DNA from: Bacteroidales bacterium
GTDB lineage: Bacteria; Bacteroidota; Bacteroidia; Bacteroidales; F082
Reading direction: 5' to 3'
Assembly: GCA_030690365.1 (NCBI GenBank)
Contig: JAUYGX010000024.1
Span: forward strand, 1 to 64,000
Length of the DNA: 64,000 nucleotides
Shown here piece by piece: positions 1,927-9,739 of the stretch; position 1 is the stretch's first letter, and every line of letters starts with the position of its first letter. Both the position numbers and the translations under genes were made by a program. Below the pieces are notes generated by a model. That model worked only from the letters and a program-made list of their open reading frames with translations, was not told the origin of the DNA and ran no database searches.

Positions 1927-2242
1927 GGTATTCGTTTTTAGTCTATGAAATTTCGCATCGGCTTTTTAGTATTGGTCGTTATGGATTGAATAGCTCCAAT
2001 TGTCGCTATGCCCATTATGTAGTCTTTATAGTTATAAAATCTTTTAGTATTCATACAACTTCATTATCAATATACTATACAATCATAACCGATCATCATG
2101 AATAAATCGGCTCCTTGTTTTCAATGCAAATAGATCATCTGATGTTTGGTTTGGTAAAACTAGGGAATTATTTTTAGTGGTTTGATTTTTAGAAGTGTTA
2201 TTTTGATGATTTGTTATTAGCGATGGGATAATTTCGTGCTTT

Positions 2243-4525: not shown

Positions 4526-4966
4526 TTAAATTTTTTCATTTTTTATTCCTTTGCTCAACATCCAAGCTGAAACTCCTGCAGAAATTGTCATTGCAAATAC
4601 ACTACAAGCTAAATCTGCAAAAACACTTGGTATTGAAAAAATATTTTGTGCAGAAAATAGTCCGAAATTAATAGCTGTCCAAAAAAGAAATCCAAGTATG
4701 AAACCATACTTCAATCCAGAGCCAAAAGTTTTCGCGCCTGACCATTTTATGGTAGTGGTTATTAAAAAGCCAAATGCCAATGAAGAAACAAGCAAAGCCC
4801 AAATTATAGGTTGGTCAGGTGGTCGGTTAAGTTGTTTTAAATATTCTATTGAACCAGCTGGATGGGTTGCATAAAAATCCTTTAAAAAAACAAAAAAAGC
4901 ACCAGCATGAAGTATGAGGTTTATTATCGTGGTAACTAAGCCTGTTAAGAGAAAATTTTTGTTCAT
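4526..4966 (-). CDS. Hypothetical small membrane protein
   Basis: Four hydrophobic segments, ATG start; antisense to a longer spurious ORF. Confidence 0.6.
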   Translation of the reverse strand: MNKNFLLTGLVTTIINLILHAGAFFVFLKDFYATHPAGSIEYLKQLNRPPDQPIIWALLVSSLAFGFLITTTIKWSGAKTFGSGLKYGFILGFLFWTAINFGLFSAQNIFSIPSVFADLACSVFAMTISAGVSAWMLSKGIKNEKI

Positions 4967-5019
4967 ATGTTAATTTTTACATTTATTTTTTGTCAGTTTG
5001 GGTGTCGCTCAACAAATAC

Positions 5020-5152
5020 TGCTAACGGGTAGCATACGCTTTGTGGCGGACTTTAAAAGACAAATCTTTCAGCCCACGACGATTTATATTTGGAACTAAA
5101 ATACTCATTTTCATAACGTAACCCGCCATAAAGTATTATGCATTGTTATGCC
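5020..5152. repeat. Long imperfect inverted repeat (attC-like/cassette-boundary-like)
   Basis: Left arm TGCTAACGGGTAGCATACGCTTTGTGGCGG (5020-5049) is imperfectly complementary to right arm CCCGCCATAAAGTATTATGCATTGTTATGCC (5122-5152), about 72 nt between arms. Confidence 0.65.
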
Positions 5153-5200
5153 TCGTTCTTCCTTTCTTCTGCCTGTATTTTATTTATTCGTTTTTGCAAT

Positions 5201-6145
5201 TCAGTCAGTTATGAGTTCGTCAAAGTCTAACGGTTGTCCGTAAATCATACTGTCTTTCATTTCTTCGTAGTCAGTTTCCCACTTTCTTATAATTGTTTCG
5301 GGCGGAATAAATTTGATGTTTGCAGGATTGTGTTTTGAATAGTCAATGCCCGAAATAGCTGTAAACTTACTGCGATGTTTTACGATAGTGTTGTAAAGTT
5401 CGGTGTCTTGCAAAGCAATGTCAACATAATCAGTTTGACTTAGTTTTTCAATGTCATAAAGATGTCGGCTTAATCGTTCCACTCTTATTTTGTCAAGCGG
5501 TTTTTGAAATTCTTCGTGCAATAAAAATACCTTTTCTAAAAATGTCCGTTCGGGATTTACAACAGGAATGGTAATTGGTTTATCCGTAAAAGGATTGTCT
5601 TTGTAGATTTCAGAAACAAATGTTCCGAAAGTTCTTTGCGTAAAAGGTTCTTTTAATGAACGGCTACCCAACTCAATTAAGACACCGGGTTTCAGATAGG
5701 TGTCTTTTTCCGTGAGTTTGTTGTAATAGATTTCAATAATCAAAGGGTCTTGGTCGTGATTCTCTACTTCACGAGGTTTTACTGTTACATTTTTAAATCC
5801 TAATTCGGTAAATTTATTTTTCAATTCTTCGGTAAAAATTTCCGAGATAAATTGAAACGATTTTCTTCTTAGTTTTCTGATGTCGCCTTTTGTTAGTTCG
5901 CCCGAAAAACCAAGAAATTCTCTGTCCAAAGCCAAATCAATGTCTTCCGAAAATCGGTGTATCACGTTCCAACCTTTGCTTAACGAAGTTCCACCTTTAA
6001 AAATTAAGGCATTTGCACAATCTATTGAAAAAATCACGGACAAAGTATGTACTACCCACCAATCTTTTTCTGCGGCTGATGAAGACGGCAAACCAATATG
6101 TCGGCTTGTTTCTGCAAACAATCTGATTTTAGTTTCGGAAGGCAA
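5201..6145 (-). CDS. abiEii: AbiEii/AbiGii-family nucleotidyltransferase toxin (type IV TA); 5' end uncertain, true start may be ATG at 6180
   Basis: AEKDWWVVHTLSVIF, IFKGGTSLSKGW, FSEDIDLAL motifs; directly downstream of AbiEi-like gene. Confidence 0.88.
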   Translation of the reverse strand: MPSETKIRLFAETSRHIGLPSSSAAEKDWWVVHTLSVIFSIDCANALIFKGGTSLSKGWNVIHRFSEDIDLALDREFLGFSGELTKGDIRKLRRKSFQFISEIFTEELKNKFTELGFKNVTVKPREVENHDQDPLIIEIYYNKLTEKDTYLKPGVLIELGSRSLKEPFTQRTFGTFVSEIYKDNPFTDKPITIPVVNPERTFLEKVFLLHEEFQKPLDKIRVERLSRHLYDIEKLSQTDYVDIALQDTELYNTIVKHRSKFTAISGIDYSKHNPANIKFIPPETIIRKWETDYEEMKDSMIYGQPLDFDELITD

Positions 6146-6172
6146 CCGAAACCATTCTTGTAAATGTTTAAC

Positions 6173-6769
6173 TTATTCATTGTCCGCAATCAATTTTTTT
6201 ATCCAAACAGGTGCTAACAGCAAATCGTGTTGCAAGTTTTTCTGATTTTCATTCTTCAAAACTTTCTTTATCTGTTTTATTTCTTCTGTTGTTACTTCTT
6301 CTTTACCAATTGTCCGCAATGCTTGTATTGCCAATGTGCTGATTTCGCCAACGAAAGCCAGGTTTTTAGAACTTGCTTTCTTAAACGTAATGGTCTGTTT
6401 TCCGATTTTAATTTTTCGTGCTGAAGTATCCGTATAAAAAACAATGTTTAACGGAACTTGTGTTGTCAAGCCCAATTTATACATTGCATAACTGCCTGTC
6501 GGGATAATCGTTGCTCTGTCCCTTTTTGCTATGGCAACCGCAATTTCTTCAATGCTCGGCAATACTTTACCAATGTAATTATCAATTACTGGTCGAACGT
6601 AAATACCTTGTGTTACTCGTTCTATTTCACCCGATTTTACTAAGCGTTCCAATGCCTTATTTACCGATTTGCTATTTGCAATTTTCGTAAAACTATCTAC
6701 AAAGAAAAGCATTCCTCTCGGACTTCTCTTTATCTTGTTTAATACATGTAATTCAACGCTTTCAGACAT
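6173..6769 (-). CDS. abiEi: AbiEi-like antitoxin (DUF6088-type)
   Basis: N-terminal winged-helix-like region (RSPRGMLFFVDSFTKIANSKSVNKALERLVKSGEIERVTQGIYVRP) and downstream domain typical of AbiEi/DUF6088; adjacent to AbiEii. Confidence 0.88.
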   Translation of the reverse strand: MSESVELHVLNKIKRSPRGMLFFVDSFTKIANSKSVNKALERLVKSGEIERVTQGIYVRPVIDNYIGKVLPSIEEIAVAIAKRDRATIIPTGSYAMYKLGLTTQVPLNIVFYTDTSARKIKIGKQTITFKKASSKNLAFVGEISTLAIQALRTIGKEEVTTEEIKQIKKVLKNENQKNLQHDLLLAPVWIKKLIADNE

Positions 6770-6784
6770 ATTTATACTTTAATC

Positions 6785-6815
6785 TTGTCGCAAATTTAGT
6801 AAATATTTGCGACAA
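6785..6815. promoter_or_regulatory. Perfect 11-bp inverted repeat upstream of abiEi, candidate AbiEi operator overlapping a TAnnTTTG -7 box
   Basis: TTGTCGCAAAT (6785-6795) N9 ATTTGCGACAA (6805-6815); minus-strand TAAATTTG at 6798-6791. Confidence 0.7.
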
Positions 6816-6856
6816 AAAATAAATTGAGAACAATATTGCTATAAAAGTTGAGATGA

Positions 6857-7129
6857 TTACTTTTCTGAATATTGATAAATGCTTTTTTCGTCCGATTTTA
6901 AAAAGTCAAAGAAGTTTATCCCTTGATATTTACAGGTTTGAAGTATCGAAAGCAAAATCAAGTGATGTTCTAAATTTTTCTTTGTAAGGCTTTTACTGAT
7001 TTTCTTTCTCCATTTTGCAAATGGTTTTTTGGAATGCTCTGCATTATTGTTGTTCCAAGGAATGCCATCGTAATTTAAAATCGAATTAATTGATAAACCC
7101 GATACGAAAACTAAGCTATCGCCTTTTCC
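6857..7129 (-). pseudogene. C-terminal remnant of a DDE-type transposase (IS66-like resemblance)
   Basis: Minus-strand translation KGDSLVFVSGLSINSILNYDGIPWNNNNAEHSKKPFAKWRKKISKSLTKKNLEHHLILLSILQTCKYQGINFFDFLKSDEKSIYQYSEK*; no catalytic N-terminus upstream. Confidence 0.7.
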
Positions 7130-7396: not shown

Positions 7397-9739
7397 TTAT
7401 ACAACATGATCAGAAATACCCGCCCCTTCCATCGAGCTTTCAAGCTCTTCAGCGAGCGCGATAAAGTCGTCCACCTTCATTTCTTTAACATAAATCAGCC
7501 CATGTGTGGCCCTTATCAGGGGATGAGTATTTTGATAAAAATAGTTCTTGCCAAGTATCAACTGAATCTGTCTCAACTGCTGAACCCAGATTTTTTGGGT
7601 CAGCTCATTAAATTTACCATCATGTTCGTAACTGGGAAACGACGCATTTACCTGACTCATATAACATTCAGTAAATGAATTTTCGAGTACGTCGAGGGCA
7701 TTTAACGAAACAGGGATAATGGCATCGGCTTCGGATGGGTGAAATTTAAACCAAACATTACGGTAACCAACTATTTTCAAATTCGATAAGTCAGTCTCTT
7801 TGCTCCACTCTCTTACTGCTCCGGCAATGGTTTGCAATACTTTATAATGTGTGTCAGGGCCGCTTCCTTCAGGATCCATGGCCAAACTAATTACCGTTGG
7901 TTTGTATTTCCTGAATTCTTCGAGAACGGGCAGCATGTCGCGGTTTTTTTGCGGTTGCTCTGTAAAAATGTCTCCCTGATAAAAGCCTAGTCGCAGATGA
8001 TGTACATTCTTTAATGGTACGCCGAAGTGAGCCCAGACCAGTTCTTCTTCAAATTCACGGATCATCCCCTTCAGTTTCTGTACCCTGGAGGGATTTTTAC
8101 TTCCATCATAACTCTCGCCCAGAAGATTCATGATGTCGTGAATAGTCTTTCGTAAAGCAATAACATCTTCTATTTGCCATATATCAACCAATGCCCTTAC
8201 CAAACGATGACACAATCCCCTTCTTTTTTCTTCTTTGTTACGTTCGGCAACGCTATCCAAAAAATGATACACATCTTTATCCCATTTTTCCTTATATCCA
8301 TGTGCAAAGAAGTCGGCATAATGTATCATTTGAATCCTGTCTTTATCCATAAAATAGATAATATCGTTCAGCGCTTCTATTACAAACCCATTGGTTACAG
8401 CTGTAAAACCTGAGGTAAGTACCGAGAAATGAACTTCGTTATGAGCCAGGCGAACTTGTCGGTTTGTGTAGGGCATAATTCCCAGCATGATGTCGTCGTG
8501 ATGAGGCCCCGTATGGTAATAGACCTGATGGTCGTCGTTTTTCATGCCCTTTGCCATCTTCAGTTTCATCGAATCGATGACGGATTGCACGGTGGTATCT
8601 GACAGATCAGGAATCAGACTGCAATATTTATCACTTTTTAAATGATCAATGGTCAGGTGATGTCCATATTTATTCAGTTTTTGGCACAGATCGATAATGG
8701 CCCTTTCTGTTTTCTGATGGTTCCATTCACCCTGTTGGTAATATGCATCAATACTATCGGTTAACTTACAGGCAGCGCCTATCGTCAGGTAGAACCGTCC
8801 ATTCTTAATTCGTTGCAAAACGGTTGCCGGGTAAATGGCTTCGGGATTACTTTCGAGCGATGATTTTACAATATTGGCTTTTGCTTCGCCAGCCGCGAAT
8901 ATGATAGCCACCGCATCGGGATTGTAGGTGATTGTTTCTAAACCAATGGTGATGACCAAGCGGGTTCGCGATACTTCGATGCCGCCTAAATCGCCGGCCG
9001 AAACGGCCTGTGTTTCGAAGTTAGTCGGGGTTAAACGGGTTGTGGAATAATGATCGGAACCACGGGTATTAAAGGCGATATGTCCATCAGGGCCAATGCC
9101 ACCAAGGAAAAACCCAATACCACCCATATCCCGGATTTTCTTTTCGTAATCGGTGCACCAGTTATCAATTTTAAAAATGGATTGCTGTTGTAGTTTTTCC
9201 ATCGGGTTTGTTGCCTCACGGTATCGCAACGACAAGTCGATGCTCAAATCAGGAAAAATCTCTATGTACGATTTCCCGTCACTCAATGGAATTTCATTTG
9301 AATTGATAAGAAGTGCTTTGTCCAAATCCAAACCAAAGCCCTCGATGTAGTAATTCATCACATAGTTGTAGAAACTATTGTGCTGTTTTGGGTTGATGGG
9401 ATAAAACTCATCAATCTGCACAAACCTTAAACCTCTCAAATCAGGTCTTTTCAAACTGCTCAGACCATATTTATTCCTGATTTCCAGTCCACTAACTTTG
9501 TCCCAGTTCTTCAATAAAAACTGCGTGTATTTGATGAAATACTCGGGAGTCTTTCCTGTGGGAAGACTGATTACTCCGTAGGGATTTTCTGAAACCCATT
9601 CTAAAAACCTTAATGCCGTAACCAATCCGAGTTTCGGAAAATTATCAACCAGTAAATAAGGGATTTTTGTAGAAATTATGGGTGCACCCGACATTTTATA
9701 AAGTGTAGATTCAACGCTTGAATCAAAACGTATATTCAT
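7397..9739 (-). CDS. NagB-like glucosamine-6-phosphate deaminase domain fused to a PIG-L/LmbE-like deacetylase domain
   Basis: N-terminal SLPTGKTPEYF, FVQIDEFYPI, FFLGGIGPDGHIAFN; C-terminal YYHTGPHHDDIMLGIMPY resembling the PIG-L PHPDDE motif. Confidence 0.82.
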   Translation of the reverse strand: MNIRFDSSVESTLYKMSGAPIISTKIPYLLVDNFPKLGLVTALRFLEWVSENPYGVISLPTGKTPEYFIKYTQFLLKNWDKVSGLEIRNKYGLSSLKRPDLRGLRFVQIDEFYPINPKQHNSFYNYVMNYYIEGFGLDLDKALLINSNEIPLSDGKSYIEIFPDLSIDLSLRYREATNPMEKLQQQSIFKIDNWCTDYEKKIRDMGGIGFFLGGIGPDGHIAFNTRGSDHYSTTRLTPTNFETQAVSAGDLGGIEVSRTRLVITIGLETITYNPDAVAIIFAAGEAKANIVKSSLESNPEAIYPATVLQRIKNGRFYLTIGAACKLTDSIDAYYQQGEWNHQKTERAIIDLCQKLNKYGHHLTIDHLKSDKYCSLIPDLSDTTVQSVIDSMKLKMAKGMKNDDHQVYYHTGPHHDDIMLGIMPYTNRQVRLAHNEVHFSVLTSGFTAVTNGFVIEALNDIIYFMDKDRIQMIHYADFFAHGYKEKWDKDVYHFLDSVAERNKEEKRRGLCHRLVRALVDIWQIEDVIALRKTIHDIMNLLGESYDGSKNPSRVQKLKGMIREFEEELVWAHFGVPLKNVHHLRLGFYQGDIFTEQPQKNRDMLPVLEEFRKYKPTVISLAMDPEGSGPDTHYKVLQTIAGAVREWSKETDLSNLKIVGYRNVWFKFHPSEADAIIPVSLNALDVLENSFTECYMSQVNASFPSYEHDGKFNELTQKIWVQQLRQIQLILGKNYFYQNTHPLIRATHGLIYVKEMKVDDFIALAEELESSMEGAGISDHVV

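Follow-up and report, generated by a model that had tools for sequence, protein, structure and literature searches.

A toxin-antitoxin gene pair of the AbiE type resides near the start of the 64,000-nucleotide stretch of Bacteroidales DNA analysed here (hereafter 'the window'). The first gene of the pair (6173–6769, minus strand) encodes the antitoxin AbiEi, a winged-helix regulator of the DUF6088/AbiEi_4 type (PF19570, 1e-68; PF13338, 1e-5; PADLOC AbiEi, 2.4e-69), and the second (5201–6145, minus strand) encodes the nucleotidyltransferase toxin AbiEii (PF08843, 4.7e-35; PADLOC AbiEii, 3.1e-94). Both families score above cut-off with Pfam and PADLOC, in the gene order on the minus strand that a preliminary description of this DNA had proposed. 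Directly upstream of AbiEi, a perfect 11-bp inverted repeat (6785–6815; TTGTCGCAAAT / ATTTGCGACAA, 9-nt spacer) lies over a TAAATTTG box. In the AbiE family, AbiEi is a repressor and AbiEii is a type IV toxin acting in abortive infection. The inverted repeat fits autoregulation of this kind, in which AbiEi would repress the pair via the putative operator, and AbiEii would, from knowledge of its family, be the toxin of this type IV system, acting in abortive infection. The gene pair and the operator-like repeat upstream of it are the same as in known AbiE type IV systems. Taken alone the pair is ordinary, and its position upstream of an attC site is its sole unusual feature.

This attC site (5024–5147, minus strand), with which the presumed AbiE cassette ends on its 3' side, opens with AAC at 5147–5145, closes with GTT at 5026–5024 and carries the R'' flank AACGAGGCATAAC. 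Downstream of it lies the small membrane-protein gene reported earlier (4526–4966, minus strand), which belongs to no Pfam family, has no second attC beyond it and is not a recognisable cassette. Upstream of the pair, an open frame of ~90 amino acids (6857–7129, minus strand) occupies the expected cassette start. The preliminary description read this frame as a piece of a DDE transposase; a transposase-like remnant is plausible, but the frame has no Pfam match, its sole counterparts are broken fragments in a single relative (65% over 49 amino acids), and support for that assignment is weak. The housekeeping surroundings described for the locus were not supported on the upstream side, where the gene at 7397–9739 was found in none of four genus relatives; for this gene and the membrane-protein gene, these relatives yielded no counterparts or only distant matches of 27–28%.

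A repeat family at the ends of gene units

The imperfect inverted repeat that had been noticed 3' of the AbiE pair was confirmed, and it belongs to a multi-copy family far beyond chance. A search of its own genome (4.33 Mb, 155 contigs, 99.6% complete) returned 40 matches; identity reaches 94% over 125 bp, some copies are arranged head to tail, and the best match besides the repeat itself has E = 6e-50. Three of the four genus relatives contain about twenty copies each. When named genomes were scanned for the pattern, the family was found in GWF2_41_31, CG18_41_14, HGW-Bacteroidetes-16 and Lentimicrobium, covering Bacteroidales and other Bacteroidetes MAGs, and also in the cultured Planktosalinus lacus. 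Three copies lie on a contig binned as Candidatus Cloacimonadota (L167), through either transfer across phyla or a binning error.

In the canonical direction, every family site opens with AAC and closes with GTT. A strict RYYYAAC-type scan of the window gave no match because the arms do not conform to the classical consensus, and an Rfam search also gave none. The first 20 kb of the window contain a single attC, and attC clusters exist elsewhere in the genome. Several copies are broken at the same model position, ~41–43 (L035:453–2098, L052:4938, L054:2121 and L103:2476), and the gap at L035:453–2098 contains a transposase gene.

The sites were evaluated for complementarity between their arms and the gene units that they terminate. 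In 41 of the 64 testable sites, the site's own gene unit starts with the exact reverse complement of the nine-base stretch that ends at the left AAC, compared with 1.05 expected from a control in which arms were swapped between sites; with ten letters, 25 of 65 sites pass versus 0.6 expected. The complementary start immediately follows the preceding site or an attI-like core. The letters to the left of AAC vary from site to site yet are complementary to the start of their own unit, as is predicted for an excised cassette circle. For 23 of the 64 family sites, no recognisable start was present within 3 kb.

The 41 delimited units have a median length of 864 bp, and every one of their 46 open reading frames of at least 60 amino acids points toward the site, with a median of 14 nt from stop codon to AAC. 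Two characteristics of integrons are thereby found: co-directional cassettes of one or two genes that end at attC and are, as their sequences indicate, probably mobile as units, and AAC...GTT arms that pair within one cassette and can fold. A cassette encoding AbiJ_NTD3 is common to the genomes G000, where it lies right after an attI-like core, and G001, where it follows another attC. The two proteins of this cassette are 100% and 98.9% identical between the genomes, and DNA homology begins exactly at |GTT. At the level of sequence, these data establish the units, their exact ends and the presence of one cassette in two contexts; recombination itself we infer from them. The attC interiors of the two copies (L025:1030–1152 and L087:7321–7443) have visibly diverged, more than the genes, which suggests exchange within the attC hairpin.

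We also considered that the repeats might be REP-, terminator- or MITE-like palindromes that are dispersed after genes by coincidence and are not mobile, with AbiE acquired by another route such as the upstream transposase. The uniformity of the family (78–80% mean column identity) and its many single copies spread over contigs would suit such elements, as would covariation in the attC stem, where there are too few changes to count as evidence for a selected stem. However, dispersed palindromes predict neither the complementarity of arm and unit start (41 of 64 versus 1.05) nor the exact |GTT junction of the shared cassette, and they leave the adjacent recombinases described below unexplained. 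We therefore regard this explanation as very improbable. A terminator or REP-like reading of the repeat was rejected on the basis of the cassette-end test.

Read on the canonical strand, the attC stem contains two A.C mismatches, invariant in all 36 sites compared; the opposite strand has G.T wobbles at these positions. Of the non-Watson-Crick pairs in the outer arm, 36 read as G.T on the bottom strand, against none on the top strand. When both strands are folded, stability favours the bottom one at 41 of 53 array sites and at 31 of 37 reconstituted circle sites. Classical integrons use the bottom strand, and this strand is probably the substrate here as well.

Probable assignment of the AbiE pair to a cassette

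An intact AbiE cassette would have the layout GTTATGCC...AbiEi-AbiEii...GGCATAAC-attC. The start GTTATGCC is absent from the 8 kb upstream, by both exact and relaxed patterns, and because of this the pair is assigned to a cassette by position only. AbiEii ends 53 bp before the attC in cassette orientation, with no gene between. Among the four genus relatives, two have no match to AbiEii, and the others encode distant forms (42% in G003 and 29% in G004) at other places, so that the vertical conservation in all close relatives that would speak against acquisition was not seen.

Apart from the probable AbiE cassette, the cargo of the cassette system includes AbiJ, T5orf172, Bro-N, KilA-N, Fic, CAP12 TIR and a weak PIN match, along with DUF4143 ATPases, MORN, TonB, outer-membrane proteins and many unknowns. 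That several delimited cassettes bear other defence genes, and that AbiEii ends near its site in the right direction as genes do in delimited cassettes, argues against an explanation in which the attC is genuine and AbiE is not its cargo, a transposase-borne AbiE having taken the place of the cassette gene originally present upstream of an orphan attC. This explanation draws on the missing cassette start, on the transposase-like frame directly upstream and on the G003 and G004 AbiE relatives, which have no attC in the stretches examined; we consider it unlikely.

Instead, the repeat 3' of AbiEii probably serves as the attC of an integron-like cassette system of Bacteroidota, with the AbiE pair most likely its cargo and the 5' end of the cassette lost or overwritten. 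Of the bounded island that had been proposed, the repeat is real, but it constitutes the 3' end of a cassette rather than one of two borders, and the 5' border is not seen. The related proposal of a horizontally acquired defence cassette at an attC-like site is upheld insofar as the repeat is a member of a genuine family of cassette sites and the orientation of AbiEii fits, whereas the 5' edge was not found.

Recombinases and attI-like sites beside the arrays

In four loci, an integrase gene reads in the same direction as the array that follows it, with 308, 178, 304 and 152 nt between the integrase stop and the first cassette start. Attachment sites of the kind that integrons carry next to the integrase gene are represented by attI-like cores, recognised as conserved by their sequence, and a conserved leader of ~200 bp precedes many of these cores. 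The order of integrase, attI-like core and cassettes is thus directly apparent in the sequences. Leader and core are also scattered over the genome with no integrase nearby (31 matches in the examined loci), as at L022, L024, L028, L031, L053, L054, L036, L052 and window positions 1989–2192; the window copy (minus strand) is decayed, matches the leader/attI profile at E = 2.3e-34 and has lost its GTT.

The 683-amino-acid integrase type, P0001 (L025:2687–4738), carries a second, catalytically incomplete recombinase core in front of the intact one. Orthologs that are 63% identical reside on attC-bearing contigs of two relatives; one of them, L160, also has the incomplete core, and on one of the two contigs the first recognised cassette start is 5.7 kb away. 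Exact arm pairs are present after L158 and were not found after L156, L157 or L159, and a repeat search next to three distant integrases found none. Complete plasmids of Rufibacter tibetensis, Pontibacter kalidii and Chryseobacterium sp. SNU WT5 encode a related integrase followed by co-directional small genes. The arrays of these plasmids have other attC sequences, with arm complementarity in several units, and contain IS110-family elements in all three cases and a group II intron in one.

An IntI-specific additional domain has been named as a defining feature of integrons (PMC9668308), and this domain is lacking here. The best solved relative of P0001 is VchIntIA (2a3v), and the IntI-specific stretch is missing in P0001; in an alignment with 11 IntI proteins, every system integrase has a gap at the IntI insertion. 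IntI forms a separate clade (100/99) in the tree, with the system integrases outside it. These enzymes score below the cut-off of TIGR02249 and near that of NCBIfam XerA_Arch, and they are distinct from the genome's two Xer-type recombinases on contigs C91 and C125. Two 583-amino-acid recombinases (L142:5515–7263 and L143:7004–8752) have HARP-like modules, are adjacent to IntI in the tree and have no attC nearby; they were left out of the system counts.

Could the attC family instead be moved by an ordinary IntI encoded elsewhere, the Xer-like recombinases being frequent cargo? Classical IntI is indeed common in other classes of the phylum (above cut-off in 84 of 297 genomes sampled), and just one of the IntI-positive genomes is listed as belonging to the same class, whose share of the sample is only partly listed. 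However, the genome under study, at 99.6% completeness, encodes no IntI above cut-off. The recombinases lie outside the first cassette, on its attI-proximal side (150–310 nt away in four cases), and are so placed on three plasmids as well. We judge it highly unlikely that such an IntI accounts for the family. Taken together, the cassette units, the arm test and the non-IntI recombinases beside the arrays support an integron-like system with a non-IntI integrase, in which the array-adjacent enzyme presumably carries out the recombination.

The N-termini of several of these integrases contain one to three modules that we tentatively call HARP-like; they are clear in the 683-, 546- and 374-amino-acid types and weak in P0002 and the Rufibacter integrase type. 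A profile of the module searched against the PDB matched only one chain below 1e-3, 4o66 (E = 2.1e-4), and the Pfam HARP match (0.005) falls below cut-off. The assignment is tentative because the fold search was not significant: Foldseek ranked 4o66 first with E = 0.58. For one integrase modelled over its entire length, AlphaFold gave a poor structure (pLDDT 51).

We propose that an Xer-like tyrosine recombinase with HARP-like N-terminal modules would recombine folded bottom-strand attC with an attI that would sit directly 3' of the integrase's own gene, and would cut at G|TT. The HARP-like modules may aid recognition of the hairpin. A further suggestion, for which we hold the chances to be somewhat below even, is that these elements form a separate Bacteroidota class of integron, built on an Xer-like recombinase that came to cassette recombination independently of IntI, and with HARP-like fork-binding modules (plus, in one type, a fused dead recombinase core) replacing the IntI insertion in the recognition of folded single-stranded attC.

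Comparison with integrons and other known systems

If this interpretation is true, the phylum has its own trade in cassettes on chromosomes and plasmids, partly of phage-defence genes such as AbiJ and probably AbiE. The system also allows a test of whether the IntI domain is required for recombining folded hairpins or whether another route exists. Surveys of integrons identify the integrase through the IntI insertion and have recorded few integrons in Bacteroidetes (PMC9024848, PMC9668308); because of this reliance, they would overlook the present system or register it as orphan attC sites. A published description was not found in a search to which preprints and most subscription journals were external, and an earlier one is possible.

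By an IntI-based rule, the arrays of this genome would be scored as CALIN, from which they differ in having their own recombinase and attI-like sites. The usual CALIN threshold is two attC sites (PMC9024848), and the window locus has a single one. With XerA, XerC and XerD the system enzymes share the core fold and catalytic residues, but they adjoin cassette arrays and carry N-terminal modules. The likeness to the HARP domain of SMARCAL1/UvsW consists of the 4o66 profile match only, and here the module is found on a tyrosine recombinase rather than on an SNF2/SF2 motor.

Integrons offer the closest comparison. Shared with them are an attI by the integrase gene, single-gene cassettes that are promoter-poor, co-directional and terminated by attC, and defence cargo, as well as, judging from the sites, a probable G|TT crossover, R''/R' arms that pair within one cassette and a bottom-strand folding bias. 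In contrast, the integrases described here lack the ~41-residue IntI insertion, fall outside the IntI clade and bear HARP-like modules at their N-termini; the integrase gene is oriented toward the array; the arm letters are freer than RYYYAAC; and the strand bias arises from A.C/G.T pairs rather than from clear extrahelical bases.
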